A stretch of DNA of 52,310 bases from Ectocarpus siliculosus (taxonomy: Eukaryota; Sar; Phaeophyceae; Ectocarpales; Ectocarpaceae). The position numbers and the translations under genes are program-made. The DNA lies in the NCBI GenBank assembly GCA_000310025.1, contig FN649755.1:2882432-2934741 (forward strand). Direction: 5' to 3'. Below the pieces are notes generated by a model. That model was given only the letters and a program-made list of their open reading frames with translations, did no database searches and was not told the DNA's origin. Positions within the stretch are counted from its first letter, which is position 1; each line of letters opens with the position of its first letter. Shown here piece by piece: positions 8,399 through 36,100 of this stretch.

Positions 8399-11300
8399 TG
8401 AGGTCTTCGTCGATGGGGTCGGGGATGGCAGGCGGAGGGGCGATAGGGGTGTACGCCGGCCTGGCTGTCCTCTGGCGCGCGCGCGCGGTCGGGGGGGGTA
8501 AGAACAAGTATGCAAATGAGAACGCCGGAAAAACGCACCGCCGTTGCGGGTACGGTTCGGGTTCACTGTTCGATTTTCAGCCGTGTCCATGCACGACAAC
8601 ACCCAACAACTATCTCGCCGTGACCGCTACTGAAACACGGCCGTGGTTGCAGGTTGAACGTACCGAGGTTGTACGTAACGTACGAACAATGGACTTGCCG
8701 CCACCCGTTGTCGGTCCAAGTGACCTCCAACCCGGTTGTTATTGAAGGTGGTTGTAACGCACCAGCGCTGCACTTGCCGCCGCCGCCGCCTCAGGGTTAG
8801 GGTTAGGGCTAGGGCTAGGGCTAGGGCTAGGGTTAGGGTTAGGGTTTGGGATAGGGCGGGCTTCTCACCTTCGCGTACACGCCGACCACGTCTTCGTGGC
8901 AGCCCGCGTCAATGCCGCCCCGGGGATGATCGTTGCCGAACCCCGCCTAAAAAGAGACGAGCAGATCGCGTATTCGCATGAACGTTCGTGGGAAGAAGAC
9001 GGGACGGACAGGGGGAGTGGCGCATTCGTAAGGCGTTGTGTCGTGAAGAAGGAAGTTTCTTGCCCTACCCTATAAGGTCTACCACAATCTAGGCTAGGCA
9101 AGGGTAGGCGAGAGCCGGAGGGGGGGGGGGGGTACTCATGTACGCGCATGCCGTAGTCGTTAGACCATTGACCTCGCATCCCTACAACGGAGCGATATTT
9201 ATGCATGTCGGGTTTTTCGCTGGCCCAGTCTACGTTTCACGAAGATAAACCAGAAGCTTAGCATAGTAGTGCAGCATCCTCTCCGTCGTGGAGTATGAAA
9301 AGGCCGAGCTTTATGAAAAAATCGGTCCAGGGTGCGTGGAATCTTACGTATGCCTAACTCACGTTTCCAAAGACGATAAGCGGGGGAAGGATGGCATGTT
9401 ACGTACATCCCTAACTCAACTTTCTGAAGAGGCTGAGCCGGGGTGTGCCACATCTCACGCATCTCACGTTTCCAAGATGGGCGTGGGGGCGTGGGTGCGG
9501 TACCGTACGTATCTAGTGCAACCCGCGAAATGCGACAACAACTCAACTCGATGCCAGGGGGTGGTATCTTGCGTATACCAAACTCACGTTTCCAAAAACG
9601 GCGTTGTGGGCATGGGTGTGGTGTGCTACGTATCCAACGCAACCCGCGATAGGCGACAACAACTCAACTCGATGCCACGGGGGGTGGTAGAATACCGTAG
9701 GTGACATGACGTAAGATACCACACCCCCTGGAACGATTTTCAAGGCTCGAATACTCCACGACCAAGAGTATGCCGAAGGCAAACGATTCGTGTTCGGAAA
9801 GCTTTCTCTCGACGGGACGGTTTCAACTCCGTCATTTTCGGCGCCGTCACGGCTTTTCCCCAGCCGGGGAATCAAGCGTTGAAAAATGGACCCAGGGGGT
9901 GTGATGATACCTCATGATGCAACCTGCGGGATACCGGACTCACGTTTCCGAACAGGTTGAGGGCTCGTTCCCACACCCAAGGCCCTCTCCTCTCCCTGGC
10001 CGCGGTGGCCCGCCACCGCCAGGGCTCCGCCTCCACGGGGTGGAACACCCACGGCTGAGCCTCCGTCGCGTTGGCATACTCGCCTGCAAGACACGCAACG
10101 CACGCACACACACGCCAAAAAGGTACATTATAAGCTCGATGTAAACGTTTCCCCGAACATGCAGGAAAGAAGGGCGCTTTCTTTTCTCCTGTGATACGCA
10201 TGTAGAAGGAAACTCGTTTTTCGGGTGAAAAAAAACACGTGTCAGGCTTCGTCGCGTTGGCATACTCGCCTACAAGACACGCACAAACACACTAAAGCGA
10301 GGGGGAACAAGTTCAATAATGCATTTCCCCCAACTTTGCGGGAAAGAAGGGCGCTTTCTTTTATTCTCCTGTGATACGCATGTACTTAGGAAGGAAACTC
10401 GTTTTTGGGTTAAAAAAGAAAACACGCGTCAGGCTCCGTCGCGTTGGCATACACGCCTACAAGACACGCACACACACATACACGCCAAAGCGAGGGGATA
10501 CAACTTCAAGTACGCACTTCCCCCGAATGCTCAAGTGCAACAACAACAAAAAAATAACCTCTAATAAACGTCCGGCAAAACAAAAAAGAAACAGTTCAAC
10601 ACATCCCCTTCGACCGTGGCACTACACCTCGAAAAGGTTGACTTGTGAAAAAAAAGCTTCTTTACCGTCTTCGTCGTCGTCATTGCCTGCCGCGGACAGA
10701 ACTCGAGCACAGCCCGCCCCCACGGGGAGTAAATAACAGAATTAAAAAATCTTTCAAAAAAATCTGGCAAAAAAAAAATACTTCAACACAGCATTTCGGA
10801 AAGGCAGTCTTTCTTCGAATGACTTCTGAGAAGACGAGAAAAGAACACGCTTCTTTACCGTCTTCGTCGTCGTCGTCGCCTGCCGCGGATAGAACCCGAG
10901 CACCGCCGCCACGGGACGTGATGACGGAAGGCGGTGAGTTCCTGTGTGCCGGTACGAGCGCTCGTCCGGTACCGGTGCCGCCATCCTGCGTCATCGAAAA
11001 AAAAAAAAAACGGGAAGAGAACTTCAAGACAGCAGTGCAATTGTACAAGAACTTTACAGAACATTTACACAAAACACACACAAAGACTACCCGTAAACTT
11101 TCTAAACACTGCTGTGATAATTGGGGAATTGCTGCTGTTGCTGTTCCAGTGACAACGGAGACAAAAAACACATGAAGCCACCCTGCGCCGTAAAAAAAAA
11201 AAAACGTACGATGGGGAGAGAAGACAAGACACGGAGAAAAAGTGAGACCATTGGGGAACTGCTGCTGCAGAAGAGGGACAACATCAGGACACGAAGAAAA

Positions 11301-14300
11301 AGTGAGACCATTGGGGAACTGTTGCTGCAGAAGAGGGAAAACATCAGGACACGAAGAAAAAGTGACATGTTGGGGAACGGCTGCCGTAAAAAGTGAGAAA
11401 CGAGGGAGAGCATCCTAGCCCAAGACATGAACAACAAAAAATAATCCTTATCTGAGACTCTTGGGGAACTCCTGCGGGTGTGGGAATGTGGGTACCAACC
11501 CGGGGTCCACAACACAGCACGTTTCTTGGCGCCTAAAGCTACACACAAGAAAACAAAAATTACCCTAGACTCTTTATTATCTGTGGATAAAGATCGATTC
11601 GAAAGTAGAGTAGGAAATGACGTGAAAAATAAGCGATATGTATCAAAAGCTACACACAGCAGAATACAAAATTCCCTGGACTCGTTGAGCATATGCGTGG
11701 ATGGAGATGAATTCGTAAAAAAAAAAAAAATTACCGGAGTTGTCGTTGTCCCTGAGTTCAGCACGACGCCGGCAAGACACAGCGCTCCCATAACCCCGGC
11801 CGCCACTGTTGACGCCACCCCTCCTCCGCCAGCGCCGCCGCCGCCGCCGCCGCGCCCGTTGTCTCCAGAGGGAAGGCCGCCGCCGCGGAAGCCGGCCACG
11901 CTTGTAGCAGCAGCAACGGAAGAAGAGGGGGGGCGAGCGCTGCTGCCTCGTGCCTGCGAAGAGGAGGTGGGGGGGGTGCCGGAGTTCCTCGAGGGCGGGG
12001 CGTGGAGGCGGCCAGGCGCGACCGCAACATCGTGGTGCTGCTGTAGGTGCTGCTGCTGTAGGTGGTCGTTTCCATGACCCCGCTTATTCCCGCTCGAGGA
12101 CGAAGATGAAGCGGTAGCAGCCACCGCCGCCGCCGCCGCCGCCGCGTTCGCTTGAACACCAGTATTGTTCCCCGCTTCCAGCTCGCACGGGCTAGCGCCT
12201 CCTCCGCCACCGTTGACGACGGTGCTGCTGCTGCTGTCGGTGGTATCGAATGGGTCCCGAACGCCGTCCTCGCCGTCCCCTCCGGCGCAAGCCAGGAGAG
12301 CGTCAATCTCCATCGGGTCAAGCGCGGCCATCGTAAGCTCGTCCTCCTCGGAGCAGCAACCCATGCCGTCGGCGGCGGCGGCCGGATGATGTCCAAACGG
12401 CACCAGACCCTCCGCCGCGCCGGCGCCGCTCCCGCCGGCGCCGGCGCCGGCGCCAGCGGCCTCAAAGGCAAGCAGACCGGAAGCGGAAAGGCCTCCACCG
12501 CCCGCCGGAGGCTGTGCTTGAGCGGCGTCGGCCGCCATCACGCCGTCAGGGACAGAGAACTCCATGGTCGAGAGGCTCTCCGCTAGTCGCGGGGGTGGCG
12601 GCGCAGCCGCCCCGTCGTCGACGGCGGCGACGGCAGCGGCGACGGTCGAAAACGACCGGGCTAACGGCGGCGAAGCAGCCTCCTCCTCCTCCCCCTCTCC
12701 GGCCATCATCACGTCGCCCCCCGTCCAGACGCCGGCTGTGGTGACCGTCCCCGCCGAGGTGCCGCAAGCCGACAGGGAGAACTCGAGAAGTTCGTCCGTC
12801 ACCGCCAACGAGCCGGCTATGCCCCCGGCGGCCACGCTCGCCATAGCCATGGCACCACCACTTGTGGCGGTAGAGGGACTGAGGGGCGGCGTGGCCGGGT
12901 GGTTCGACCGCTTGTCCAGCGTCGACATCGGGGAGAGGTCCTTGTGGGGCACGCGGGCGGGGGGAGGGGGGGGGGGTGGGTACTCTTTATGTTTTGCATG
13001 CCTTAGCGGTTAGACCATTGACCATGCGTGCTCGAGAGGAGGGTCCTACAGGACCGATCACCGACTACTAATCGTGCCTTCCTACTTTGGTAACGGGAGG
13101 GGGGAAGGAGCAGCGCGTCGTTCGAGGAATACATTCTTCGGCGACAGAGGGAAAAAACAACAAGCCCTGCTGCTGCTCCACAAGAGCTACGTATCACACA
13201 ACGGTAGTAAGGGAGGTAGCGGATTCGCAGACCTCCGTGGGAGGCGATGCCGATGTTCGATCCTACCATACTGTCGGAGAAGGACTGGCGTGAACATGTG
13301 AAAATACCGAGTGCGCTGCATCCTGCTAACTTCCTTGCATACGGATGACCGCTGCGAATGGCTAACATTGCGTTTTCTGGTGCTTTCACTTCCAGAGACA
13401 GCGGTAGGGGGTGGGGGACAAAGATGCTGCCTGCTGCTCAGCTGAGGGCGGATACACGACAGCTCGGGTAGGACGAAAAGTGATTTGCGTCAACGTTTCA
13501 GGCAGAGCACATCCCAGACAAGAAGCAGCACAGAGTTTTGCCGATTTGTGACAGTTCTCATTATTTGAAGAATTGATTACAAGTCCAGGGAACTGATAAA
13601 AAGACGAGTATGGGTATTAGAGTCAAAAGCATACCGCACGGTAAGGTTCAAGAGAAGGCTGGGTACAAGAGTACTATTTTCCGGCTGTTGATCAACCCTC
13701 TCCATATGTAGGGGTACGTTACGTAGAAACTTCATATTTTTTCAACTTGTTTTTTTTGTTTGTCTTGACGGTTGAGACGTCGAAAAAACAGAAAAAAAGG
13801 GGTTGTTGACGCCGCAGCAGGCAACAACCATTCAGTAGCTCACGTCCCACGCGAAAGGCAGCACAGAGCTGAGCCCCCCCAATCGTTTGTTGTGCGAAGA
13901 ACGGTGGAAACAAAACAAAAAAAAAAATGAATGGTAGCTCACGTCTAAGTCGCTCTCCGACCAAATAACACAGCAGCCGTTGTCGAAGTGGGAGCAGCCA
14001 AATTCAGTACGCATGTCAAGAAAGAGACGGTTGACAAAAAGAACAAAAAACAGAAAAAAAAACGCGATAAGCAGCTCACGTCTGAGTCGCTCTCGGAGGA
14101 AGATGAGTGCGCCTGGTCCTCCGTGGTGACACCCCCCGCGTCCGACGCATCGTACGCCCCCCCCCCCTTACCCCTTGTGGTACTAGCGGACACCCCTTCG
14201 GCAGAAGAAGAGCTTGAGGCCAGCTTGAAGGCAGCAGCAGCGTGTTCGCAACAGAAGGACCCGGTGGCGGTATCCGTACTCGCAGCTGCTGCTACAGCAG

Positions 14301-17300
14301 CAGCAGCAGCAGCTGATGCGGCAGCATGAGCTGGAGACGAGTCGGCATTCGTCTGTTGCTGCTCCTGCTGCTGCTGCTGTGTTTTACTCTCCCCGCCGAC
14401 CGACTCGAGCTGATGCACCCGCTCGCCCAGCTCCTTGTTCCGTTCCAAAAGGGAGGCCCCCTCCCTCCCAACGCGCACAAAGAAAATCACGCCCGGGGGG
14501 GGGGGGGGGGGGGGGGGGTCAACGTCATGAACCGGGGCAAGTACAGTCGTTGTCCCGGTTTCGCGGTTCCTTGTTTAGTGGGATGCCCTGAATAGTGGTT
14601 CCAAAACAGCAGTGATGAAGGTTGCTCTACTATCCTACCGGTGATAGTTGATGTTTGGGGGCATAGTTGTACTATGCTGTAACTGTGCATCATATATAAA
14701 TGGTTTGGGGTGTTGCTTGTGTGTTTGTTTTGGGTGTTTTGTATTTTTCAGGTGTGGGGGGTACATATCTCGTGGCACGGCTGCACCTCAGCACTCACAG
14801 TACTAGATAACTGCCGATCCGGTTTAGCGGCGATGCCCTGAATAGGGGGTCACATTAGCCGCTAACGGTTTAGCAGAGACGACTAAGACAGCGTGGGCTT
14901 TTATAATCAGTAAGGGGGTGCAAAAGAGCGGCATAGCTTGTCCAGGTACGGTTTTGTTTACCAGAAAGATAAAACTTGTGTCAGAGGTGTTCTATGGCAT
15001 GTTCCCCGACTCACACACACATGGAACATAGGACGCTGGGTGCCCAATGAAAATACGCCAGTCTTGTACGGTAGCACCACAACGCACATACACACACCTG
15101 CTTCTCCAGCCTAGCGATCTCGTTGTCGCGCAGGCGCAAGCAGTCCTCCAGGGTGTCCACTCGCTGCCGCTGCCTCTCCCGGTGCTGCTGGGCGCTCATT
15201 CTGTTCCGAATTTTTCGGCGCTCCTTTTTTTTTTTTGTTGCGAGATATTTAGCGAGCGAGCGAAGCCGGAAGCATCAACAAGACGAGCGAGTGCGACGTG
15301 TGAGGAACGCACCGCAGAAATAGCGGCCGGTGATGGTGGTGGTGGAGATGGGCTCTTGTGAACGCATGCCGCACTCATGAGACCACTGACGTCGTATCCC
15401 ATGTAACCGCATGCGGCAGTCGTTAGACCATTGGCCTCGCATTCCTGCAACCTTTGGGACCGGCGGAGCCATACCGCGGGTGGCGAAAGATATCACACCC
15501 CCTGGATCGACGTTCAAAGCTCGACCACTTCACGACGAAGAGGATGCCGAAATCAACGAATGAGTTTTCAGAAAAAGCTCTCGACGAGACGGTCCCAACG
15601 CCGCCATAATCGGCACCGTCACTGCTTTTCCTGCGGAGTAGTCGAGCTTTGAAGATCGGTTCAGGGGGGGTGGTATCTTATGCAACCTACGGCAAACACT
15701 AACATTCGCGCCCAGAACCACCTAGATACTCGATGAGCCCCGCGGATGTTTTCCGTCCGTGGCTGCCATTCCCATTGGTTGCAAGTTGTTGGTAACACAC
15801 ACAATGCCACAACACACACACACACACGCACGGCCTAGCTGCGAGGGAGGAGAGTGCCGGAAGAGGCATTAGACATGGCACCCCCGCTAGAACGACTCTC
15901 AAAGCTCGATCGCTCCACAACCAAGATTGTCTGTACCGCACCGTATAACGTACCGTGGTATTCCGTACGAGGCGGAGAGATGGCAACCCGCCTAGAACGA
16001 CTCTCACAAGCTCGATCGCTCCACAACCAAGATTGTCTGTACCGTACCATATACCGTACCGTGGTATTCCGTAAGAGGCGGAGAGACGGCAACCCCCCTC
16101 TAGAACGACTCCCAAAGCTCGATCGTTCCACAACCAAGAGTGTCTGTACCGTACCGTATACCGTACCGTGGTATTCCGTAAGAGGCGGAGAGATGGCAAC
16201 CCCCCCCCAGAACGACTCTCAAAAGGCTCGATCGCTCCACAACCAAGATTGTCTGTACCGTACCGTATACCGTACCATGGTATTCCGTAAGAGGCGGAGA
16301 GATGGCAACCCCCCCCTAGAACAATTCTCAAAAGGCTCGATTGCTACTCAACCAAGTGGGTGTTCTGAATGAGCCTGATACGTCAACGCAAAGTCGTCGG
16401 CGAGATATTTTCAAAGCCACCATTGTTGGTGTTGCTCCTAAAATCACCGTTGTTGGTGCTGTTTCCAAAGCCACTATTGTTGGGGTTGCTTCGAAAATCA
16501 CCATTTGTTGGTGTTGGCACAATCTTGGTTGTGGAGGAGCAATTGAGCATCGAAAAATCGGTTTGGGGGGGGTGATCTCTCCGCCTCGTACGGTAATCGA
16601 GATTTCAACAATCGGTTCAAAGGGGGAGTGGCGCATTGCGCGACCAACCTACAACAGTATGCCTGCTTGAGGGGGCGTGAGCGGTGAAAGAAAGGGGCAG
16701 ATTGAGAGAGGGGCGATGTATGCGAACATAGCAAACATGATTTGAAGGGAGGGGCTCCTGTGTCTGCTGGTAGGTTGCTTGTGTGTGTGCCGGAATCGTT
16801 CGCGGAAAACACAGTGGGAACAACCACGGAAACCGAACGTATGTACGGTAATGAATCTACACGGACTGCACGGTGTGCGCGCGATCTTGGCTCCGCCTCC
16901 AACATGGATAGACCCGCTGGGTGCCGCGTTGAAACACGCCTTCTACTTGTATCTACATTGATGTACGGAATAACGCCCAAGCAGGTAGACGAGAGTATCC
17001 ACAGATGTATCATACTACTGATGTAAATCCGAGTTGCGTCTGTTCATGAGATTGACCCGTGGCGAGAGCTGATTGGTTGAAGTCTCAGGGGGGGGGGGTC
17101 AATCACGCCCACCGCGGGGCCGCTCACCAAACATTCTCTCTGTCTGACTCCACTGACTGGACGTCCATGGGCCAGTGTACTCATGCACACGCATGACGTC
17201 GTCGATATTTGGTCAGACCGCTGACCTCGCATTTCTAAACGCCGGGGGGCGGAGAGATATGTACGTCGGGTTTTTGCCGGCCCAGACTGTCTACGTTTGA

Positions 17301-19105: not shown

Positions 19106-20700
19106 GGGCTGGCTCACTAGGACCGTTCCCAGTCCCGCTCCGCTCTTGTTGGCGATAGTCCTTCCACGTGGAACGTCGTTTCTCAAGCAAGCTCCTGGGC
19201 TCGAGAACGCCTGCAAGCTCGTCGGCACCCCTGCTGTTCGATTTCTGGATTTTTTTTTTCAAATAGAGGTGGGCCGGGATGGGGGTACAAAATCCAAATA
19301 ATACACAAAAATATGGGTAGGGGGGGGGGGTATGCGTGACGGTTACACAGCGGAAGGGAGTGTGGAGACGTCGTGGAGACACGCACACACATTTTCTTCT
19401 ATCGCAACCGCTTCCGTGGCCTGCGTTACTAATTAGACCACTGCTGTTACTACAAGCAGTCCAGGTAATCATATGCATATTGTTAGAATAGCCTCGTGCT
19501 TGTAGGGGGATTGTTCCCCTTCGACTTCGTTCAACAATGCCGCCGCGCGAGCGGAAAATGTTCTTTGTTCCTCCCCTCTCGGTCGCGCCGCTCGTCGCTT
19601 GCCGCTGTTGTTGTCGCAACAAATGCTTCCTGAACGGTTCGCTACCCTGCTGCTGCTGCTGCTGCTGCTGCTAGGTTGATATCATATTCCCTCGCTGTCT
19701 TCGTCCTGACGGTCGAAGCGTCTAGCAAACAGGCCTCTCGGCCGGCCCTGGCCCTAACCGCTACGAAGCGTGCATATTCCGGCCGACGCGGGACTGCCTA
19801 CCGTTCGAGACCGAACGGCCGGGTTAAAAGGCAAGCAGCAAGCAAGCAACCGGGGCGGAGAGACGCTACAATACGCACGACAGGCAGGGGCCACCGGCAA
19901 GAAGCGAAAAATGCCATCATATGGTGGTGAGTGCACGAAACAACGGCCTTTCGTAGAAAGTGTACAGCAGTCGAGTGGGACTTGGTGGGACAGGAAATAA
20001 CACGAACGCTCTGTAGTCTAGGAGGAGACAGAGGAGATCATACAAGAGGAACACAACTGATTATCGACTTTAACCCCCACTGCGGGACATGCAGAACGGG
20101 GAGGTACATGTAGAGGCGACATGCTTATTGTTACGGGTGTGCAGTGTTGGACGTTTTTTTCCTCCGGCCAACATACACCGCTGTGCTGACGGGTGCCCGC
20201 CCCCTCCCCAGTTGCGCCGCCGTTGTTGGGGAGTTGGCTCTCTTCGGGTGTGTACGTAAAAGCGGCAGCTTGATCATAGCAAAGGCTTGGAGAGAAAGTT
20301 CCTATCAGTTGAATGCTTTGAGTTTTGCGCCCATTCGTCTTATTTCCTGGCGTAGCAACCACGCAGTCCGCATCAATCATCTGCAGGTTGGCTCGGAACA
20401 TGGAAAAGTGTCGTCGATGGGTATGCTGCCTCTGGTCTACATACAATAGATGTCAGGGGCTGACGTACATAATCCAGTGTTCGTCGAGCCTTCCAACAAA
20501 AAGTAGGTCCTATGCCCCCGTCGTTACCGAGCAAAATCATAAGAACAATTCAATATTATATGCCTCATCTCCCTGTTGGCCTCCTTTTCGCTCTCTACCC
20601 TCTCCGCGGCTACTACCATACGCTGTCGCCCCCCCTCCCGCGTGGCAATCCAGCTTAGAGCGCGTTGTCAGCGTAGGCCGCCTGCTGTCAAGAGGCGCCT
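19106..20700. promoter_or_regulatory. Divergent promoter interval between the bZIP and EF-hand genes
   Basis: The 1.6 kb between two divergent start codons should hold both promoters and 5' UTRs. Visible items are a CCACGTGG palindrome at 19164-19171 (the core bound by many bZIP and ATF6-type factors, though it may lie in transcribed sequence), a (CTG)n run at about 19650-19674, and a repeat copy at 20.03-20.23 kb. No TATA box was convincingly assigned. Confidence 0.45.
20029..20230. repeat. About 200-bp repeat, copy 1 (direct pair flanking EF-hand exon 1)
   Basis: Shares AGAGGAGATCATACAAGAGG, GGGAC..GCAGAA, GTTACGGGTGTG and ACTGACGGGTGC-like blocks with 21542-21742. Same orientation as copy 2. 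Confidence 0.7.
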
Positions 20701-23700
20701 ATGGGGCCTGTCGTTCAAGCACAACCCTCGCCGGCCGCCGCAACCTGCGGCGGTAGCAGTGGCGGTGGCAAGTTCCCTACAAGGAAGCTCAGTGGCGACC
20801 TCAAGCTGCGGCTGGCGCGGCTGCCGAGCTTAGGAGGGGGAGGTGTGCCACCAGGCGGAGAACTTGAAATCGTTCGGCGCGGCAGCGCAGGCGGCAGCCG
20901 CAGCAGCAGCTACAGAGGAAGATCATCAATTGGACATGCGGTGAGATTGCCGTAGGCACGCTGAGCCCTACTTACTATGGGTCGTGGGACTTGCTTTGTA
21001 ATGGTCGAGTCTCGCGTCGATCGACTATCACTGGGGAAACGCGTCAGGCTCGTCCGTCTCATCGAGCTACAGAGCGATGCCGCGGTCTCGCGAACGTTTT
21101 CGCAAGCCGTAAGAGTTGACGAAGCGACATCGCTCATCAACCTTGCGTATACCACTGCCGTAGACAGGGTGCTGTCGCAAGCGTTGAGTGTCCCACATGA
21201 CCGTTCTCTTTGGGTGTTCGTCATGGGGGTCAATGCTCAAGATACACCGCTGCATGCATTGACCTCTTCGTCTTTCGACCTCTACGAACACCTGGTTTCT
21301 CATACGCAGAGTACAGCAGTCCGGCGCCGCAGCTAAGATACTTGCGTTAACAAAAGCAGCTCAATAGACTTTAGGAAAGGTAATAATTGGGTTAAGAAGA
21401 CAACCGGGGATACTCCTACGCTAATCTTAATGCCGTAAGCTGTACAACGCTCGACGGTGATAACCAAACAAGAAATCGAGCCTCGACCCGAACTTCACGT
21501 TTCGTATCTCCGGGTCCCTACTGTACTAGAAACAAGAAACGCAGAGGAGATCATACAAGAGGAAGAAAAGTGGTTGTTGACTAACCCACATGTGGGACAC
21601 GCAGAAACGGGGGCGTAAATATAGGCGGCATGCTGTATAGTTACGGGTGTGTGCATTTGTTCGACGGTTTCTTCCTCTCTGGGCAAATGTACACCACATT
21701 TTTACTGACGGGTGCTCGCATCCTGGTCAGTTGGGCCGCTTTTGGGAGTCTTCTCGACCACAGCGTGTAAAAATATGGCCCTCTTCCCGCAATCGGGTTG
21801 GATCTAACGCCTCGGGGTTTACCACGTGTTACTCGGTTTGCCTCGTGGCACAGTTTCTACCTCCTTCCTGACGTGCGGCAAAACCCTACCGGCCTTTTGC
21901 TGAGCTAGCGTTGTTCACCAACCGTATGACAGCACTCACACTCGAGTCCCCCGATTCGTTTTTCTACCCCTTAGCTATCTATACACACGTTCATCCCGCC
22001 CGCCAAACAACCAACGTTGAAAAAAAGCTACGTTCGGACTGCCTACACGAAGAAAGAAAGCTTTCTGCTGCACGTAGGAAGACCAGGCTGGGGGCACGTA
22101 GACCGAAACCCTCACCCGCTATGTTTGTGCATTTGGAAAACGTGATGTTGTTAGTTTTCTTTTTCGTTTGGGTAAAAGCATACCGCGTCTTGGAGGACTT
22201 TTCGGGGACCCATTTTTTTTTTTTCTTCCTATTAATAGTTGGGTTGTGACCACGCAAGGCGTCCGCGTCAGTTGCACTGTTATAGCATAGCATAGTATAG
22301 TATAGTACAGTATAGTATAGTATAGTACGGACATTAGAAGGTACTGAGAGGAGACCGGAACGGTTTTTTTATGTGAAGACGACGACAACAACAACAACAA
22401 CAACAACAACCGCACGGAGACTGGTGTCTTTTCATTGGTCAGCCGGGTAGCGCGGTCGATGCCAATATTAAACAACCACACAGCAAAAGAATGACGACGA
22501 CAATTACAACAATATCAACAACAACAACAACGACCACAACAACAACAAAAACAACAAAAACAACAACAACCAAACCAACAACCACAACAACAACTGCTGC
22601 GTTCGGCTGCACAGTCCGCTCGTCGTCGTCGTCACGACCGAGCCGCCACGGTGCGTCGTCGTCACGACCGAGCCGCCACGGTGGGACGCGGTGCCGTCGT
22701 TGGATAGCTACGGTAGCGACTCTTTCTTGTGCTCCGTTGCTCCTTTGTCTGGGATACCGCCCTCGTTCCCGAGGGAATAGCGCTGCTCTCGCCGCATCCC
22801 CTTCTTCCTGCGTTCGACGGTGGCTCGGCTGACGTGTCCTGCCTAAGTCTTGCTGCCGTCACCCTTGTTGCTGATGTCGGTGCTGCTGCTGCTGCTGCTG
22901 CTGCTGCTGCAGCTGATCCCCCCCCCCATAAAAACGCTCCGTCCGCGTGTGTCTCCGCGCTACCATCATCGCAGAAAGACAGCAGTGGTCGTAGTTCTCG
23001 GGCAAGCGGCAGGAGGGGCCCCGCAGATGTTGGCGAAGACGACGGGGGTGGTGGTGCTGCTGCGGCCGTGAGAAGGCTTTCGATGACCTCAGCCAGGGAC
23101 GGGTTCAGCCTCGTGCCGACCTCCTCGGGCAACGTCGCGGTCGACGGGGGCGTTGACTCCTCGCGCCTGACCTGGTATGTTGGGGTTAGAGGGATAGGGT
23201 TGGGGCATACGGCCGCCGTGACGCTCATGACAAACCTCTGAATCCATTCATCGCTAATTTATCCTCTCCTGGCGCCCGACCTGGTGGGTTAGGTTAGGGC
23301 TAGGGTTAGGGTTAGGGTTAGGGCATACCGCCGTGACGATCATGATGTAACTCTGAATTCATTCATTCCAAATTTATCCTCTCCCGTGACCTGGTGGGTT
23401 AGGTTTAGGCTTAGGTTTAAGGCATACGACCGCCGTGACAATCATCGTGTAACTCTGAATTCATTCATTCCAAATGTATCCTCTCCTGTGACCTGGTGGG
23501 TTAGGTTAGGGTTAGACTAGGGTTAGGGCATACGGCCGCCGTGACGATCATGATCATCCTCAGAATTAATTCATTCCAAATTTATCCTCTCCTCGCGCCT
23601 GACCTAGTGGGTTAGGGTTAGGGTTAGGGTTAGGGTTAGGGTTAGGGTTGGGGTTAGGGCATACCGCCGTGACGATCATGATAAAACAGTGAATTACTCG

Positions 23701-24301
23701 ATTGCCAAATTTTCCCGCAAGTGTTTTTTAGTGAATAGAGAATGAGTTAGCTCGTTGTCTTCTTGCATATTTCGTTGCTAATTTATCCTGGTACTGTGTT
23801 GCCGTGGATGGATGGAGCCATTCATTTTTTTTCTAGAAGAAGGAGAAACGCAGCAGGACCTTCGGAGGACCCACAATGCGGCCGCTCTCTGCACCCGGCC
23901 GTTCATGACCTTGTCACGGCCCCTCGCCCCCCCCTCAAGGCACAGCGATTTTTCAGCAATGCCCGCACACAACGAACAAGCAGTTACAGCGCGTGATGAA
24001 AATCTACCTTTGCAGGACCAACCCGATGTCTGAGCGGGCTCCGTGGCCCGCCGGTTCCTCCCGCGGGAGCAACAACAGCGGTGGCAGAAGAGGCTCCTCC
24101 CTGGAAACAGCGACTAAGGGGTTGGCTTCGGGAAGGGGCCTCGCGGAAGGGAGGGGGGGGGCGGATGGCGACGACGACAACGATAACGAGCACCAGGAGT
24201 TCATGAGAGAGCTCGCGTCGCACAACGGGCTGCAGCTGCGGTGCTCCCAGGGAGAGGACGAGAGGGCCAGACATCGCCGAGAAGTGGACCGTCGGATACA
24301 G
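20701..24301 (+). CDS. EF-hand gene exons 1-3: low-complexity N-terminal region
   Basis: Exon 1 encodes MGPVVQAQPSPAAATCGG... with basic and Ser/Gly-rich sequence and ends GGACATGCG|GTGAGA (phase 0). Exon 2 has a poly-Ala run and ends RLTW at a strong donor CTG|GTATGT (phase 2). Exon 3 (acceptor CTTTGCAG) continues TNPMSERAPWPAGSS and an acidic DGDDDNDNEHQEFMREL helix, ending RRIQ. Exon 2 is less certain because its minus strand is also open. Phase agreement with exon 3 favours plus. Confidence 0.6.
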
Positions 24302-27300
24302 GTACAGCATTGTAGGTGGGCCCGATGCAAGGCCCCCTACACAGTAGTGCCGGCAGGATTACCGGCCTTACATCGGGTGACCGGCACAATATAGATTTAG
24401 AGTATGAGACAATTTGAACATCTGTGCGAAGCGGTTTCACCGGCCTTATGTCGGGCGACCGGCCGTATTTATTCGGCCTTCTACTGGGCCCGCTTACTCC
24501 GCAGCAGTGGTGGCGGCAGGCTTAGCTACAGGTCCGCTCTGCTCAGCTTTGGTGCTACTTTTCCCCTCTCCCGTTGTCTGTTTTTACATCGTTGTTATCT
24601 ACATGTAGCAGTGTCGATAATTCGCCGGGAAGCATAGCCTATATGCTTATCTGTTTTTTCCATTTTGGCTGCTCGGAAATATTGCGAGGTCAACGGCCCG
24701 AACGACGACGGCCTGCGTTTACACGCGTCCACCCCCTCACCTCCCGCCCTAAATAAACACTGCGTCGTTGTCGCCCCGCTGGATTGGCGTCTTGTCCATG
24801 TTCATTTCGTCACCATCGCGCACTCGCCTACCGTGCGTCACGTATGGCACCACACGCCCTGGGCCGATTTTCAAACCCCGATTTTTCCGCCAGGAGAACT
24901 CTTCACGGCCGTACGATCGTGTAGCAATTAAGTGTGTTGAAAGCGTCCTTCACAGTTGTTCGATCGAAAAAAACGAAAAGCTGCGTGACCACCCGATCAC
25001 CCCAAAATAGATCCAGGAGGACTGCGTTCGGCGGCCGAGCGTGGGGCAGTCGAAGGTCCTCCTCAAGGCGAAGATCCTGGGGAGCATCGGCGGCGGGCCG
25101 TTCGAGCTCCTCCGTGCGTTTCGGAAGATGACCTGCGGCGGGGGCACGGTGAGAGATGTCGATACTGCTGTGTGCCGTTCGGAATAGTGTAAAGAAACAA
25201 ACCAACGTGGATGAAGTCAGTTTTGGGGTTCATATCGAATACGTCGAGGATTCTAACCACGAAGACGGTTCAGTTCGCCTCGATTGTATCGCGAAAGGTG
25301 ATGGATGAGAAGGAATTGTCCACCATGTCATAGAGGTAGATGTGTGGTAGTAGGTAGTACCGTAGGCGACATAAGATATCACACCCACTGGATCGATTTT
25401 CCAAGCTCCATTACTCTTCGACGAAGAGGATGTACAAGGAAAACGATACGTTTTCAGAATGAAGCTGCTCTCGTTGGGACGTTTCAAACGCCGCCATTTT
25501 CGGCACCGCCTCTCGTTCTGCTGTGGGTAAATCGAGCCTTGAAAATCGGTCCAGGGGGTGTGGTATCTTGTGTCACCTACGGGCAGTGCTTCCATCTGTG
25601 GATAGAGGTCGGTTGTTCGCGCTACAGTAAGACAACGAAAGGAAAGGCACACGCCATGTACATACCGTAACCATGAGTTGTCACACTGCATTTTCACGCT
25701 ATGTGCATACGGTAAACATGAGAGTCACACGTATACTTTCGAAAATGAGAGTACCATTAAGAAGACCCCAAGGAACAAGACAGCGGGCCGCCGTATGAAA
25801 CTGCACCACTCGCCAGCTCTCTTCCTCGAACAAGGCGCCACAGCGCAGTACGTACAATAGCAGGTGTCACTGCCCCCCACTAGGCCGACGTTAGTAGCTC
25901 GATTTCTCCACCAATGAAAGGTTAGCGATGGCGGCAAGGGTGGCGTTTGAAAGATCTCGTCGAAGAGATAGCTTTCCTTCATGTGTGTGTAGTGTATCCT
26001 CGCACGTGTATCGGTCGACTTTTGCCGCCTCCTGGTTGCGGGGTACCGTAGGCTGCATAAGATATCACAACCCCTGGATCGATTTTCGAAACTCGACATC
26101 TCGGCAGGAATAGCGGTGGCGGTGCCGAAAATGGCGGCGTTGGATCGGTCTCGTCGAGAGCTTTCCGAAAACGTATACCTCAATTTCGGCATCCTCTTCG
26201 TTGTGGAGTAATCGAGCTTAGAAAACCCGGTCCGGGGTGTGTGATATCTTATGCAACGTACGGTAATTCTTCGTGTGTGGGGAACGCTCGCACTTGTAGC
26301 GGGAGTACCAAAGGTTGACCACCGATGTTAATCTGTTCCGAGAATATTGCGCAGAGATGAGCAGCACGTTCTGGTAACTTCCAGGGTAAGAGCTTTCCCC
26401 CCCCCGCGAAAACAAGATCCCACAATCACCGCAACCACTTCTCGACCGTGGAGTTACCTGAAACTGAACATCGGAACCGAAAAGCGTTTGGACTACTGGG
26501 TGCACGATGCGTGTCCCAGGCCACTGATTTCGGGGACTTTCAAGCGCTTGTTTTCCACCTTCACAAAGAAGAAGGCCGGTAGCGAAAAGCTCTTGGATTA
26601 TTGCACGATGTGTTTCCACGGGTAATCGGTTTCATTTCAAGGGCTTTCAAGCGCCTGTTTCCCCCTCGACACAACAGAAGATGGGTAGATAGCGAAAAGC
26701 TTCTGGGTTGTCGCACTATGCGTGTCGCACGTGATCGCTTGGTTTCCCCGCCACAAAACAGAAGATCCGTAGCGAAAAGCTCTTGGATTATTTTTTCTCA
26801 CGATGTGCTTTCGCAGGTCATCGATTTCAAGGGCTTCCGAGAAGGGGTGAAAAAGCTTAGCCTTGGCCTGACGGAGCCCGAGATCCTGGACTTTTTCCGA
26901 TCCTTCGACGCCGATGGCAGTGGGGGCATCGACTTCTCAGAGGTAAGCAAGGCAACTCGCTGTGACGAGTGGATACAGTGTGCACCTAACGACAGTACAA
27001 CCGGGGTTCCAATCCCGGTGTGACCGTTTGTGACGCCTTTTTCCCGGAAAAGGAAAAAAGATCTGGAATACACGCATACAAGTCATGGTATGCATTTCAG
27101 TCGTCCAAGCGAAGACACACAATTTTTTTCGATGTACAACAGCATATTGTACATCTACGGGTGTCTTTGGGTGGGGGGGGGGGGGGGGGGTGTACGCATA
27201 GTCGTGCATGCCGTAGTCGTTTGACCATTGACCTCGCATGTCATCCCCTCGCATGTCATTCGGTAGAGGGGGGACTTTTTGAGGCTTGGCGTACACATCT

Positions 27301-30300
27301 TGCCGGCTTGTCGACCTGACATGTGCTTGTGCGGTGCTGACACAACAGCACGAGCCCGCTCTCAAAAAATAGTTTCGCCACGAAACAAAGGTTCGCCTTT
27401 TCATGAAGAATGAGAGAAATGGGTCAAGATACAGAATTCCCCCGGTTAAGGACACACAGTGTTTTTCATTTCAACAGGTGTCACCCCCCCTTATGTTGGC
27501 CATTCTGCGGGGCACCATGCCTTTGGAAAACACAGTTGTCCTTAACTGGGGAAGTGTCCTTAAAAAATGTTGTCCTTAACCAAAGGGACGACTGTACACA
27601 TCTCAGCGGTGGACCCTAACACTATTCACAACCTGTGCTAGACAACGGCGGCGACGATATAATAGAGTACGCCCCTCGACACGATTTTGGCGTTTCATTT
27701 CTCTGGGCCCGGACTGCATGAAGTTCTGCGAGCGGTCCGGTGAAAACCGGGCGCGCTCCGTCCCGGCTTTGCAGGGGTGATAGGCCAGTCGATGGTCTAA
27801 CGACTACGGCGGAACGCTTTTTGCGTGAGCACACTCCTGTGACTACGGGAATCGACCCCGTCAAGTGATAGACTAGTGCGGACAGAAGAAGGTACTGGGC
27901 AGAGAGAACGGAACGTTTTTTTTATTGTGAAGATAACAACAACCACACCAACACCTCCCTGCTCTCTCCGCGCCGTGTGTTTCGTCGTGCGCCCGTGCGC
28001 GGTGCTGGTGAAGTTCTGCGAGTGGATGGAGGCCACCGACGACAGCGCCGACGAACCGGGAGGGGGCGATGAGGAAGATGATGACAACGGCGGCGGGGGT
28101 GGCGGGGGCGGGGGTGGGACAAGCAAGGGAAGGGAAGGGGGCTTTCGCCCTTCCAGCGGGGGCAGCGACAAGAGCGTCAGCAAGCGCAAGATGCGAGACG
28201 CGCAGGTATTAATTCGCACGTACGGTTAGACGGTGGCTTGTGCCGCTGGCCCACGGGTTCAACGTGCAGTTGTGGGGGTCCCCACAAAAAAGGCGGTCGC
28301 CCTATGTAAGGTTTATGAAACTGGGTGGATTTAACTGAACAATCAAGTTGTTCTACGCATGGATGAAGGCGGGTGTCCCATTTAAGACGGTCATTACCAG
28401 CTTCCCCATCACCGCCTTACTCGTGAACCCCTCACTGCATTAAAAAAAAATCAGGGGCTATCTCTGTAGTTTAAAGGCCTTCTCGCGATAAAAAAAACTA
28501 AGACCAGCACCACCGGGAGAAAGATGGAGCAGTAAAACAGCCAAAAAAACGGAAAAAAAACTGTTGTGTGACCTTCCTCTTGCGTGACCTCGGCTGATAC
28601 GTCAGGTATTACGCCGAAAGGCCTGTCAACCGGCGCCATAATAGATCAGACGAACGCGCACACACACTACCGTAAAACGGCGGTAGTTTATTCAATCGCT
28701 CCTCCTTCCATCAACCAACATAATCAGGGGAAAAAACGGTCTCTGGGGAAGAATACCCTGACAAAGTCAAGAAGCTTTCTGCTTCTGCTCCATCGATATC
28801 CTTGTGCGAAGTACCGTAGATCGCCCAGGTTAACCTGATCCCGCGGGTTCAAAGTAACGCTCCGTCCATGCTTTACACGCCCTCGACAAGCGGTAGCTTT
28901 ATTGGAGTAGTAGAAGAGATATGGTCTCAGGGGGGCAAAAACAACCCCCATGAGCGCACCAGAACCACGTAATGAGAGAGAAAACAGCAAGCACCGGCCG
29001 ACTGCATCGCAAAATCGCGCGGGGAGCCCCCCCCAAAAAAAACAAATATATGGGAGATATCGCTGTGTGCTGCTCGGGAAACCGTAGAAATACAGGTAGT
29101 CTCCGCTGACGCTATGAATTCATTGTTAATCTATCGTGGACTCTTTTTTGGGATATAGATGGAATCGTTGTGCCAAAATTGAGATACAAATTAAAAATTA
29201 AAAAATAAACCACAGGCTAAGGTGAAGGCGGCGTCCGAGAGGGTCCCCGAGCGCACCATGGCGGAGAACGAGCAACTCCTCCGCCAGAAAATTCTGGGAA
29301 GCATCGGCGGCGGGCCGTTCCAGCTGCTCCGGGCGTTCCGGAAGATGCACCGCGGGAGGGGAACGGTAAGAAGATGAAGAAGAAGAAGAAGAGGAAGAAG
29401 AGCAGATGCAAAGAGGGGGGGGTACGCCGCATCTGCCGTCCCCCCACTTCCTGAAAACAAACCGACACGATGCTGTGCTTTGGGAAATTGCTTAACGTTT
29501 GAGGCACGGCAGAGGGGGCAAGCTGTACACGAATATTAACTTTTCGGTTCGACCAGAGCTACCAATAATCGACAACGTAGAACGTAAATCGAGGCTGAGC
29601 AAATGACAAAGCGGTAGAAGGAGACACGGTGCGGTGCGCGAATCATAACTATGTCGTTTGATCAGTTACCGAAAACCGAGAACCAGCACGATACGTTGGA
29701 ACTTATATTCATATTTAGGCAACAACGCCATGCATGGTAGAGGGGGCATGGACGGTGCTAGGGGCACCAACTACACTTGGTGGTTCCACCAGGCACCTAC
29801 ACCCCGCTCTATCTCTCTCAAATTTGGGGAAGAAGCAGCTTCTGCATGGATGATGGGCAGCCAGCGGCCCGGGCTTGTCTTTCAGGGAGTTCACAGAACA
29901 ACACACAAGCAGTTGTTTTTTCCGTCCGTTTGTTGCAAGAAAGACAGCTAGCCCCGACTTGGTGGATTTCGATGGGAGGTCTCCGTGCCACAATCATGCT
30001 ACGTTTGCCGCCAGCGTCTTATTGTACCTTCATTCTGTCCCGGTCTTCGTCGTTGAGTTTTTTTTTTACTGCGATTCGGTAGTCACACGGTTGCTTTGAA
30101 CTTTGAGACTTTCGCGGTAAGTACAGGAGAACCCTGCACCAATCCTAGATGATAGCCGTTGGTCCCCCCCCCCCAGAGGAAACAAGAAGAATGCGCCCGG
30201 GCAAAATAAGAGGCTGTAGGAGGTGAGGCTGCTATCCTCTGTACTTGTTGCACGCAATGAAGTAGTTCACCTAAGAAGCGATGGCGGAGGCCGCAGGGTG

Positions 30301-33036
30301 GGGAGCCTCAGAGAGAAGTGAACCGTTTCTTTGTGACCGAACACGGGTAATTAGTGCCTGGCAGAAATAAATGCTTTGAGCGCTGATACATTAAGTGGGG
30401 AAAAGAAACGAGCTTCTGACGGCGCACGCATGCAGCGGTGGATGACTTACCTTTTTCACCGACCACGGGTTCGGAGTGTCTTCAAACCAAGGCAAGCACC
30501 GCAGGGAGGGGGAAAAGTGGGAAAAAAAACAAATGATAAAAAATGGCCCTGTGTGACCTTCCTCTTGGGTGACCCCGGCCGGTACGTCAGGTATATTTAT
30601 ATATGCCGAAAGGCCTATAAACCGGCACCACAATAGATGGGACGACCACACAAACACAAACACACACACGGTTAGCGCGGTCGCAGCAAATAATAATAAA
30701 AAGACACACACATGCCGCCCCTCACGGGGTGCCAGGTCATGGCATTTAGAAGTGTGTTGTGTTTTCAACCGCACTGAGAGTGACGTCTTTTCATTGGTCA
30801 GTCGATGCTACAAAACATTGACACACACACCACACACACACACCCGGCAGCAATAAATGCCGTGTGAGCTGACACCTATAAAGTGATGATAAAAGAACAA
30901 ACCCTTCATTCATTCTGGAGGCGCTTGCATGCAGGTGGCGGATCTGACATCATGTGATGACGCAGCTGATATATAGAGTGATGAAAAATATATATATTAC
31001 GTGATTGTTGATATGAAGTGACGACAAAACTTAAAACATCTCTTCTTCCTTTCTGATGCCGCGTGCGTGCATGCACGTGGTGGGTCTGGACGACATTCGT
31101 GAGGCCGATACAAAAGTGATGACAAAAAAAAAATCTGTGATGATGAGTATTAATACAAAGTGAGAAACAGAACACAAAAACCCCTCCCGTTCCTTCCTGG
31201 CCGTGTGTGCATGCATGCATACATACAGGTGGTGAATCTTTTACGACTTTCGTGAGGCCGATATATTAGTGATGGAAATAAAAAACTCTGTGATGATGAG
31301 TGTTGATACAAAGTGACGAAAAAGATACTTCAAGTACACAACATCTCCCGTTCCTTCCTGGCCGTGTGTGCATGCATGCATACATACAGGTGGTGAATCT
31401 TTTACGACTTTCGTGAGGCCGATATATTAGTGATGGAAATAAAAAACTCTGTGATGATGAGTGTTGATACAAAGTGACGAAAAAGATACTTCAAGTACAC
31501 AACATCTCCCGTTCCTTCCTGGCCGTGTGTGCATGCATGCATGCAGGTGGTGGATCTGAACGACTTTCGCGAGGCGGTGAAGACCTTCAGCCTGGGGCTC
31601 GGCGAGCCGGAGGTCGAGGCGTTCTTCAAGGGATTCGATGCCGACGGTAGCGGCGGGATCGACTTCGAGGTGCAGCACGGGAGAGAGAGAGAGAAAAAAA
31701 AAAATGGCGGTGCTTTTATATGTTTTATGTTTTTCTATGCATACGCATAAAACGTAGGTACTTGTTTATATATTTAACCTCTATGTTGTTAGCTCGTTAT
31801 GTACTTGTTGTTGCTGGCGGTCCATCATTTAATACGCTGCATGCACAAAGCCCGTGTACATATTCGTTATGTGTATTTTTGCAGTCATTTTTCTGTTGTC
31901 TACTTTACTGGACGTATTTGTGGCTGCTGGGGTTTCGACGAATCCAGTCCACAGCGGGTACGTACTCGCTTCGTGTGGTCACCCGCCGGGCGAACGGCTT
32001 AAAAACATTGATTCGCCGTTTTGCGGTGTCTTTCTTGCATTATTGCTTTTTTCTCTCGTTCCTCTCGTTCTTGTTGCTATTCTTGTTCCTTCGTTTCCTC
32101 TTGCTATTCTTGTTCTTCTTGTCCTTCTTGTCCTTCTTAAGCTCGTCCTTCCCGTTCTTCTTAAGCTGGTCCTTCTTGTTCTTCTTAAGCTCGTCCTTCC
32201 CGTTCTCCTTGAACCCGTTCAATTGTTCTTGTTACTCTTGCTTGTTGCGCTTGTTCTTGTTGTTCTTTCGTCCCATCTGTTCCGTGCGCCAGCCTACAAA
32301 CCACTTTTTTCTCCCTTGTTGTCGCTGTTCTGCCGATGATGCTTCCTTCCATCCTCTCTCCTCCTTTTCCGCAGGAGTTCTGCGCTTGGGTAGGCGGTAC
32401 CGACGCTGCAGGGGCAGCAGATGGCTTTCTCCTTCCCGACAGCAAAACCACCAAATCCTCACCTGGGTTTATTCCTGGGGTGGCCGGAGAGGGGGGATGG
32501 GACGACGATACGACGAAGACCCCCGCCATGAGGGCGCAGGAGCGGGTGACTCGGGCGTTCCGCGAACAGGTGAGGAATTATTTCGGGTTTTCAACAGTTA
32601 TTTTTTCCACGTGCGTTCACCCCACCTAACCCCACAAGAACATGGTGTTGGCGTTCTGTAGTGACGTTTTGTGAAAGAAACTGAGAAGCAAGGTCTTCGC
32701 TTGTTAATGCGGTGGTTGCCGCTCGCTTGATGACAGTCCCGTGTTTGCCTATATACCCTGTTGCTCATCTTTCATGGTGCTGCATTCTCTCGAGGGGAGG
32801 GTGGGTTCGACAAGCAGTGTTTAGCAGTGGACTTCCTTTTGACGTGCGTTTCTCGTGTACCTGTTCCTGCGCGGCGGCACTCAGGCCGGCAAGATGACGT
32901 CGGAGACATTGCACAAGGTGCTCCGCGAGAAGCTTATCTCCACCGTCAAACCAGGGGGCGGGACGCTCCTCCGCACGTACCACAACCTCCACCGCAGTGG
33001 CGATGTAGGCAAGTACTGTACACGTCTCAAAGAGAG

Positions 33037-33102
<66 letters not shown>

Positions 33103-36100
33103 ATCTTCACATTAAAAACCGTTCCCGTCTCCGCTCAGCACCTTCCATTCTCCGTACTGGTCCAACTGACACGAACGCGTTACGTGGTCACAATCCAAAT
33201 TCCCCAATACAGCAAAGAGAAAGTATGGATGTAAGAGAGAAAAAGGCAGCGTCTCAAGAGAGATTGTTCAGGAGAGAGTATGGATTTGTGACAGTACCGG
33301 CCACGTCTCAATAGAGATTAGCACTCTCTTAATGTTCTGGCCCCGCTTGCCGCAAAACGAGGCCGACCTCGACGGTACCTGGGCTGTGAGGATATTGAGG
33401 GAATCAATAGAATGAATATATATATATATATATCTCCTACGAAGAAGTTTGTCATAAAATGTGATGGAAAACGAAACACTTCCCGCCATGATCCTCGCAG
33501 TCATCAATCTTCCTCCGCATCCTGTCCGTGTACCTCCCCTCCCCCTCCCCTGCCCAATCGCGTCGCCCTGTGCTTTTCTCCCTCTTCCGTTCAAAGGCGG
33601 GGTGGAGCTGGGCGATTTCAAAGAGGCCGTCCATCGCTACGGGATGGGAGTAACTGACGCACAGGTGCCCGATAGATAACATCGACGCAAGACACAATGC
33701 TGGTACACCACAGAAAAAGGCCACCCGTTCTTTAAAGTACAGTTCCCCGGCCGAAGGAACTCATTGAAGTCTTTTCGATGAGCTTTTGAGGGACACCTGC
33801 TAGAGTAGAGACTGGACTCTTTTCGAGTCAGTTCTAAGCCATTTCACTGTGCCGGGAAATCGTACAGATTGTTTTTCCTTTTCTTGTGAGTCATCCGCCT
33901 GAAGGGGGAGGAAGGACAATTGTGTTTGGGTGCGGTAGCTCGTCAGAGGCCGAAAGAGAAACAAGGTTGACTCAAGACCTTGGTTGCTTAGAGAGTGAGA
34001 GACACGCGGTAGGCAACACCATCGCCATGTAGCATGTCCACCATCCGCGTATGGAGGCCCAGTAGACAGTATACTCTGCCGAGCACTCCAAACAGACAGT
34101 TTTTCTTTTTGGTCTTTCCTTGGCGCTCAGCACGGCCAAGTTCTCTTGTCTGGGAGTTACCATGAAGAAGTACGACCACCCCGTTTCTCAAACACGGGCT
34201 CGAGGGTGGAGGACAGGTTCAGTCCGTCAAGCCTGGCAAAGGCGGCACACCCGATCAGAGAAGCGGTAGTTCATTTTCAACGACAACGTACGTCCATCCA
34301 TCTGAGCAAGCCTTTTGCCGAATGTCAGCTGTCGTCGGTCATCAGCCTTCTGGCAAGAGCAGGCCGATCGAGGTCCCAGCCGACCCTCATTCGCAGCTGT
34401 CATCCGTTTTCAAGGAAGTAAGCAAAAGGTGCCGGAACGCCTGTCGCAGGATGCAGCGCACCCTCCACGCGACTGGCCGAATGCCTCACGGCGCTTCGCG
34501 CTCGGGGATGTGATAGCCTGATCCGGTGAAAACCCGGCGTGGTCCGTCCCCGGCTTTGTAGGGATGCGAGGTCGATTGTCTAGCGACTGCGGTATGCGTG
34601 TACACGAGTATACGCCCCCCCCTCCCCGCCCCCCGTTGCTCGCGGAACCCCCGCCACAGGTAGAAAAGCTGTTCCGGCGCTATGATAAGGATGGCAGTGG
34701 GGACATCGACTTCCACGAGTTCCTCAAGCTCATCATGTACGCCGAAGACCTCGCTCCCCAGGTGCGTTGTGGCGATCGGCTCACCGATACCGCACCTGCT
34801 TCGCTTGCGATGAAAGTGTTAGATGCACAGCATTTCCACGCCACTACAGGTTAGTCCGACTGACTTGTTAACGAGTGGATATGGTGTGTGCATCAAACAT
34901 TAGACGTCAGCGCTGACTTGTAGCATTGTACCTGGTAGTGGATATGCTGTACAGTGGATGTGCTGAGCTTCGTGAATTGGATATGGTGTGCATCAAACGG
35001 AACGTCAGAGGTGACTTGTGCATTGTAGTGGACATGGTGTACTGCACATGTAACAGCAAAGCAGTCCTTTACCCTCGTGGAACAGCAGGTTCTTGACACC
35101 TCTCTATCTATCCTTGCTTGTGCTCGCGTCACCTATGTCGTTGAGGGGAAACGGGCTGTACCGCAATTGTGCTCGACCGTGCGCGTGCTTAGTTTTTGTC
35201 GGGTTCATCCGACAACGATCCGACAACGATCCTAACCCTCTCTCCCTCTGCACTCCAACAGAATATGCCCCACCCATGGGCTTTCCCCAATCACGGACGT
35301 TCGCACGTAGCAGCCTTCACATTATCACTGACGCATCACTGCCCAATCAGGATAAGTTCATACAGAGCAGCCTTTGGGGCATCACTGCTCAGCCAACATG
35401 GGTTCGCGCGAAACAGACTTTCGAGTAGCACTGCCCAATCAGGATAGGTTCGTACATAACAGCCGTCGGATTGTGACTGCCCAATCACACAGGTTTGGAA
35501 CGCAAGGATTTCGGGAGTATCACCTCCCAATCATGTTAGGTTCGTACGTATCAGCTTTTGGAGTATCGCTGCCCAATCACGATGTGTTCGCACGTAGCAG
35601 CCTTTGGGGTATCACTCAGTCCCCCCCCCCCGGGTACCCGCGGCCCCGCCGGTCAAAGATCCTTGTCGTGTGTGCCCTAAAGCCTAGTGTAGCTCTCAAT
35701 CCCGACCTCCAATTTGTTTTTTTTTCAGTGCCTGACTGCGCCCACTGCAAAGACTTTCAACTCACCCCGTTCGACTGCTTTGGTTCTACAGTGGGGGTTC
35801 CTGTTTATTGCCGGAATTGTGCCCAGGAAATTCGCCGGCGCTATACCGAACCGGCGCTGTTCAAACTACTGGCAATGTCTCGGAAATTCCGTGCGTGCCT
35901 GCCGAAAACACCGGTACTATTCCGGGGTTGGCACCTATTCAACCGGCACAAAACAGGGACTCCACTGTATCTCAAACGGGTAGCCTTTCTGTGACTGGAT
36001 GCCAATTTTCTCCCAAAGGCGAAGGCTGTACATGACCGAGTGGCTTTCGACCGTTCCTACTTTCCTAAACGATCTCGCCTCCTCGCCCGGCCCTCTCGAC

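Follow-up and report, generated by a model that had tools for sequence, protein, structure and literature searches.

Tandem duplications spanning exon-intron junctions in a duplication-rich stretch of the Ectocarpus siliculosus genome

We examined a 52,310-nucleotide stretch of the genome of the brown alga Ectocarpus siliculosus (contig FN649755.1, positions 2,882,432 to 2,934,741, assembly GCA_000310025.1; hereafter the window), in which introns of two genes, one encoding EF-hands and one labelled bZIP, carry tandem copies of a splice junction together with the edge of the adjoining exon. The original prediction listed seven such places and attributed them to a process of duplication anchored at junctions. 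Self-BLAST, alignments and shuffles show that the repeats are present at all seven. In our assessment this stretch is rich in duplications, and the arrays are probably ordinary tandem repeats of the minisatellite type, with units of ~100-190 bp, that in some cases cross a junction by chance. On our best reading, the arrays are the phenomenon named "mirages" in amphioxus, here found in a brown alga.

For each junction, 30 exon and 30 intron bases were aligned to the junction's own intron and compared with 100 dinucleotide shuffles of that target intron. Best-copy scores lay above the shuffled controls at all seven places, each of which has a splice-site-like junction: z was 15.2, 8.1, and 20.3 for the EF-hand exon 2 donor, exon 5 acceptor, and exon 8 acceptor, 9.6 for the bZIP exon 3 donor, and 22.9, 19.9, and 5.9 for the putative bZIP exon 5 donor, exon 6 acceptor, and exon 6 donor. 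As had been proposed, the aligned copies include exon sequence (~18-56 bases from the neighbouring exon, established or putative), and they are found at donors as well as acceptors in both genes; the same build recurs in two conserved kinesin genes. Every listed place has at least one copy with the junction and exon-side bases, with reservations about one copy at bZIP exon 3 (13.85 kb) and about the status of bZIP exons 5 and 6. At four of the seven places the exon is well supported (three EF-hand junctions and the bZIP exon 3 donor), and the other three involve putative exons without protein support. By the same test there was no copy at the bZIP exon 4 acceptor (z 0.5), exon 4 donor (3.2), or exon 5 acceptor (-1.0). 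A clear exon-bearing copy was found at 4 of 18 EF-hand junctions, namely the three listed and the previously unlisted exon 6 acceptor (z 4.7); the donor at 33008 also reached z 4.7, with a copy that holds no exon bases, and was left out of this count.

Similar copies are common throughout the window: of 871 tiles of 60 bases placed arbitrarily, 144 match a copy no more than 1 kb away at z>5 (37/198 in the EF-hand region and 26/97 in the bZIP region). Local duplication makes up 12.7% of the window vs 1.4% of the kinesin and kinase loci used below for comparison, which are centred on conserved-gene exons and so are not a matched set. The repeats are far above shuffle chance, yet not exceptional against the window's own background. 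GC content is 53% and the genes are intron-rich, as would suit a brown alga, and the genome comprises 189.5 Mb.

The EF-hand exons are coding, and Pfam supports their identity: modules 1 and 3 score over the curated cut-offs of the EF-hand models, and module 2, which holds exon 8, falls below the cut-off with a query that was shortened for this module. Exon 2 lies upstream of the modelled gene body, and the model may lack one or more small exons. At the exon 2 donor, the GT is kept in four of four copies, each with 17-18 exon bases, and three of them score at least as high as the true donor. Upstream of exon 5 there are three acceptor copies, with the AG lost in two and kept in one, and upstream of exon 8 there are four, with the AG kept in three. 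From the aligned decoy positions, the first stops fall at codons 14, 29, 9, and 9 in the exon 8 copies and at codon 21, nowhere within 100 codons, and at codon 14 in the exon 5 copies. Taken together, six of these seven copies reach a stop within 29 codons and three have lost the AG. Most copy pairs are ~60-88% identical. In the exon 8 array the inner unit pair is identical at 156 of 157 positions and the outermost pair at 85 of 138. These near-identical inner units have a common head unlike that of the true exon; the true junction therefore seems to have taken no part in the most recent duplication (or conversion) at this place.

The three EF-hand modules (25017-34761) have one intron position in common, and an array lies at that acceptor in modules 1 and 2, with none in module 3 (33597). 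The exon 5 and exon 8 arrays, which belong to modules 1 and 2, match each other in the exon part only. Low-complexity arrays detected with Tandem Repeats Finder (TRF) also occur in EF-hand introns at 29368-29401 (which begins just beyond a donor), 32054-32210, and 33038-33102; none of them straddles a junction. Interstitial runs of the telomere-like GGGTTA were seen at 8793-8856, 23286-23323, and 23609-23659, the latter two within the exon 2 donor array. Two related inverted-repeat stretches in a single EF-hand intron (25357-25582 and 26043-26265) look like short non-autonomous DNA transposons.

The second gene is a putative bZIP gene, so labelled from a basic region and zipper readable in its translation; Pfam gave no bZIP match for the fragment queried, which is without most of the basic region. 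Its putative exons 5 and 6 are bounded by splice sites that look plausible, and their frames are open. Two copies of the exon 3 donor had been proposed. Of these, the 13.94 kb copy is clear (13915-13960, score 28.0, 18 exon bases), whereas the one at 13.85 kb (13823-13846), which keeps GTGAGCTAC and 3 exon bases, scores 12.0 against a shuffle level of 11.3. The copies of the putative exon 6 donor are flanked by inverted-repeat arms (9274-9349 and 9709-9773) that resemble a short non-autonomous DNA transposon. The junction-spanning arrays are listed in Table 1.

Table 1. Positions of the junction-spanning arrays, the EF-hand gene model, and the kinesin cases (window coordinates unless a locus is named)
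Feature	Position	Strand	Details
Array over EF-hand exon 2 donor	23157..23712	+	Unit ~102 bp; exon end 23174; four further copies
Diverged array over EF-hand exon 5 acceptor	26472..26836	+	Spacing ~105 bp; exon start 26817
Weak single copy of EF-hand exon 6 acceptor	27698..27735	+	Exon start 28014; ~12 exon bases; not in the original prediction
Array over EF-hand exon 8 acceptor	30923..31579	+	Units 142, 152, 161, 157 bp; exon start 31547
Copies of bZIP exon 3 donor	13823..14109	-	Last exon base 14080
Duplication of 3' part and donor, putative bZIP exon 5	10640..10915	-	Spacing 193 bp; at most 56 exon-side bases
Three-copy array, acceptor of putative bZIP exon 6	10050..10524	-	Spacing ~186 bp
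Four copies like the GGAAAC/GTGAGT donor of putative bZIP exon 6	9350..9611	-	Donor at 9943; one copy altered at GT
EF-hand gene body	24016..34761	+	Three modules; gene finder corrected by reading, Pfam EF-hand
EF-hand exons	24016-24301, 25017-25148, 26817-26942, 28014-28205, 29216-29365	+	Gene finder and reading
EF-hand exons, continued	31547-31669, 32885-33008, 33597-33664, 34660-34761	+	Gene finder and reading
Kinesin donor duplication	C15:2643348		23 exon bases
Kinesin acceptor duplications, two	C24:2455600		43 and 41 exon bases; second in the VDLAGSE exon

Placement relative to junctions was evaluated in a comparison sample of kinesin-motor matches and 30 kinase loci (267,690 bases). For kinesin, 136 of the 138 matches listed were taken, 131 of them within the DNA examined. 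Matches reading through stops (8/30 kinase and 21/131 kinesin) were dropped from training and anchors, leaving 132 fragments on which a small home-made gene finder was trained. This yielded 299 usable junctions, 235 on Pfam-anchored exons and 64 between anchors. The gene finder places GC donors at 12% of sites, which is probably too many, and at least one predicted donor (position 2916 of the C24 locus) looks ~14 bases misplaced.

The view that duplication is anchored at junctions was not supported, as the rate of local copies is flat from the intron interior to the junction, both at the 299 sample junctions and in the EF-hand gene. With a 40-base window slid across the junctions, and copies sought within 1 kb on the intron side at z>4, the windows with copies numbered 2, 4, 3, 7, 8, and 6 of 299 at offsets -40, -20, -10, 0, +10, and +20, then 8 each at +40, +80, +120, and +160, and 5 of 289 at +200. 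The pooled ratio of -10 to +10 over +40 to +200 was ~0.8 (0.34-1.50 by bootstrap over 62 segments). In the EF-hand gene, the same windows gave 3/18 at junctions vs 75/414 in the intron interior, the count of 4/18 given above having come from longer windows. A junction peak was likewise not seen in the small set of 72 two-ended introns.

A second test placed arrays at random, with up to 60 exon bases allowed, using BLAST arrays found with low-complexity masking. For 15 arrays at E<=1e-3, three straddled a junction vs 1.9 expected (p 0.28) and six lay near one vs 3.8 (p 0.15); at E<=0.1, with 20 arrays, p was 0.22 for straddling and 0.10 for nearness. Arrays excluded as lying in or over exons numbered 0, 1, and 3 at E<=1e-3, E<=0.1, and E<=1, respectively. 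One of five arrays in the two-ended introns straddles, vs 0.57 expected. Translation and alignment verified three straddling duplications in two kinesin genes, on contigs other than that of the window. All three are on exons between Pfam-matched pieces and were first noticed from array positions; the C24 exons each read as kinesin singly. In the stricter set of Pfam-anchored exons, none of 256 junctions has a straddling duplication. A further kinesin gene (L064, C12:219300-224100) contains a large direct-repeat block at 941-2124, off the predicted junctions, with most pairs 78-92% identical.

Several observations weigh against purely chance placement followed by decay. At the most relaxed threshold (E<=1), 12 of 26 arrays lie near a junction vs 6.8 expected (p 0.02), with p 0.09 for straddling. 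The BLAST-detected EF-hand arrays straddle in three of three cases vs 0.38 expected (p 0.001), a post hoc figure for the arrays that drew attention; it covers the masked BLAST arrays, with the three low-complexity TRF arrays outside the count. Arrays reaching 60-200 bases into an exon numbered none at E<=0.1 and one at E<=1 in the sample. Since indifference to junctions with units of 100-190 bp predicts more arrays deep in exons, the arrays seem to be shaped either by selection or by breakpoints that favour the vicinity of junctions. Finally, the exon 8 copy at 31077 is in frame through its exon part and the exon 5 copy at 26622 is stop-free over 100 codons, so decay is incomplete. Overall, the evidence speaks against strong anchoring, and there may be a modest junction preference or selection limiting the length of exon copied.

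How a duplication that crosses a junction could persist can be suggested from the sequence. Slippage or unequal exchange would generate the first copy and then expand the array. Under exon definition, splicing would keep to the outermost site, the one joined to the intact exon; the mRNA would stay unchanged and the inner copies would turn into intron. A duplication at a junction would be tolerated for this reason, the intact exon still being defined by its outer site. Drift would then erode the array copies, and a dedicated function would be unnecessary. The coding sequence appears untouched by the arrays. Splice-enhancer-like skews at Ectocarpus exon ends, as described in the available portion of one report (PMC4476162), would favour the intact exon over decoys.

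Decoy splice sites are indeed left in these introns, and many score like true sites: 4.4, 5.3, and 5.3 vs 4.8 at the EF-hand exon 8 acceptor, 4.4, 4.4, 4.4, and 0.9 vs 4.2 at the exon 2 donor, and 4.9 and 4.9 vs 4.9 at the bZIP exon 3 donor. The suggestion that duplication lengthens introns applies locally, with arrays making up 14% of EF-hand intron bases, and is minor in the sample, where they account for 745 of 39,958 bases in 72 introns. Those two-ended introns have a median of 453.5 bp; a median of 524 bp is given for Ectocarpus autosomal introns in the accessible text of PMC12477816.

The alternative that survives best is that mutation itself starts duplications more often at exon borders, through nucleosome edges, R-loops or breaks coupled to splicing, or template switching at AG/GT. 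We regard this as unlikely, and hold equally doubtful a version of it in which tandem duplications arise preferentially within ~60 bp of exon-intron junctions and a transcription- or splicing-linked mutation bias adds decoys in this stramenopile genome. The straddling EF-hand arrays and the near-junction excess at the relaxed threshold would fit it, as would the 10 array-junction pairs listed at E<=1e-3, five of which have the array end between -60 and +50 of the junction, and the nucleosome scale of several units (142-193 bp). Against it are the flat base-level profile and the p values of 0.15 and 0.28 at the strict threshold; moreover, three of the six near arrays come from one kinesin gene, the most alike exon 8 units are the inner ones, and the low-complexity arrays of EF-hand introns straddle no junction.

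Selection for the decoys, as alternative or poison splice sites that regulate these genes, is very improbable, and we reject it. Scores mostly equal to those of true sites at EF-hand exons 8 and 2 and bZIP exon 3, together with the retention of AG in 4/7 acceptor copies and of GT in 4/4 exon 2 donor copies, are what it would lead one to expect, but the other acceptor copies have lost the AG and the exon 5 and exon 8 arrays have no sequence in common outside the exon. The early stops in six of the seven acceptor copies also speak against it, though a poison site would fit them too.

We likewise reject, as very improbable, the idea that the introns themselves were born when AG/GT-bearing exon segments were duplicated in tandem, the arrays being what is left of this. 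Copies do contain an exon edge and a splice signal, but the arrays sit at a single intron end (the intron between exons 7 and 8 starts at 29366 and its array at ~30923). The intron position common to the three modules has arrays in only two, which suggests that the introns predate the arrays. A whole intron between two copies of an exon segment, the mark of intron gain by duplication, was not found, as each of the three EF-hand arrays touches one intron end. In 2007, Zhuo et al. reportedly described human introns derived from tandem arrays. Intron gain by tandem genomic duplication is described for potato RdRp in the available part of PMC4974935; the duplications there bear splice signals as ours do, whereas in our genes the arrays extend one end of introns that already existed, with no new intron position evident. 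Mis-resolved repeats in the assembly, which the 156/157 identity of the two inner exon 8 units might suggest, are just as implausible and are rejected, since most copy pairs are too diverged (~60-88% identical) for assembly duplication and the same build is found in two kinesin genes on other contigs.

Minisatellite-like duplication across junctions has its closest counterpart in amphioxus, where, according to the accessible text of PMC3087553, intron-exon boundaries are tandemly duplicated in the globin genes BflGb6 and BflGb9 and in Adh3. Both boundaries are affected, units measure 150-160 bp in BflGb6, and two haplotypes have 6 and 3 units; reverse transcription PCR suggests regular splicing, with which the arrays appear not to interfere. 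The arrays described here resemble them in units of similar size that span the junction with exon and intron bases, in the retention of AG or GT by many units, and in the near-identity of some inner units. Both intron ends are affected (donors at 23174 and 14080, acceptors at 26817 and 31547), and homogenised inner with diverged outer units are seen in one array, that of EF-hand exon 8. They differ in belonging to a very distant lineage, in being known from the DNA of one assembly, and in that arrays here are also common off junctions. Internal tandem repeats at exon-intron boundaries are also described for human segmental duplications (De Grassi and Ciccarelli, 2009; PMC2812944, in its available portion); these too reflect minisatellite expansion, but they alter coding sequence or create introns, whereas here the coding sequence appears intact. 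Among the matches listed in a search of the open-licence literature, we found no report of boundary-spanning arrays in brown algae, which leaves their absence unproven.

These observations extend the boundary-spanning minisatellites of amphioxus to a very distant lineage and suggest that tandem duplication generally yields such arrays as a by-product where genomes are rich in introns. Introns with several sites of equal score, of which presumably the outermost alone is used, offer natural tests of how the spliceosome chooses exons. A junction bias, if true, would indicate a mutational process linked to the structure of genes. Apart from the arrays discussed above, the window contains a tandem array of 109-bp units at 15881-16356 (4.4 copies, 90% matches).

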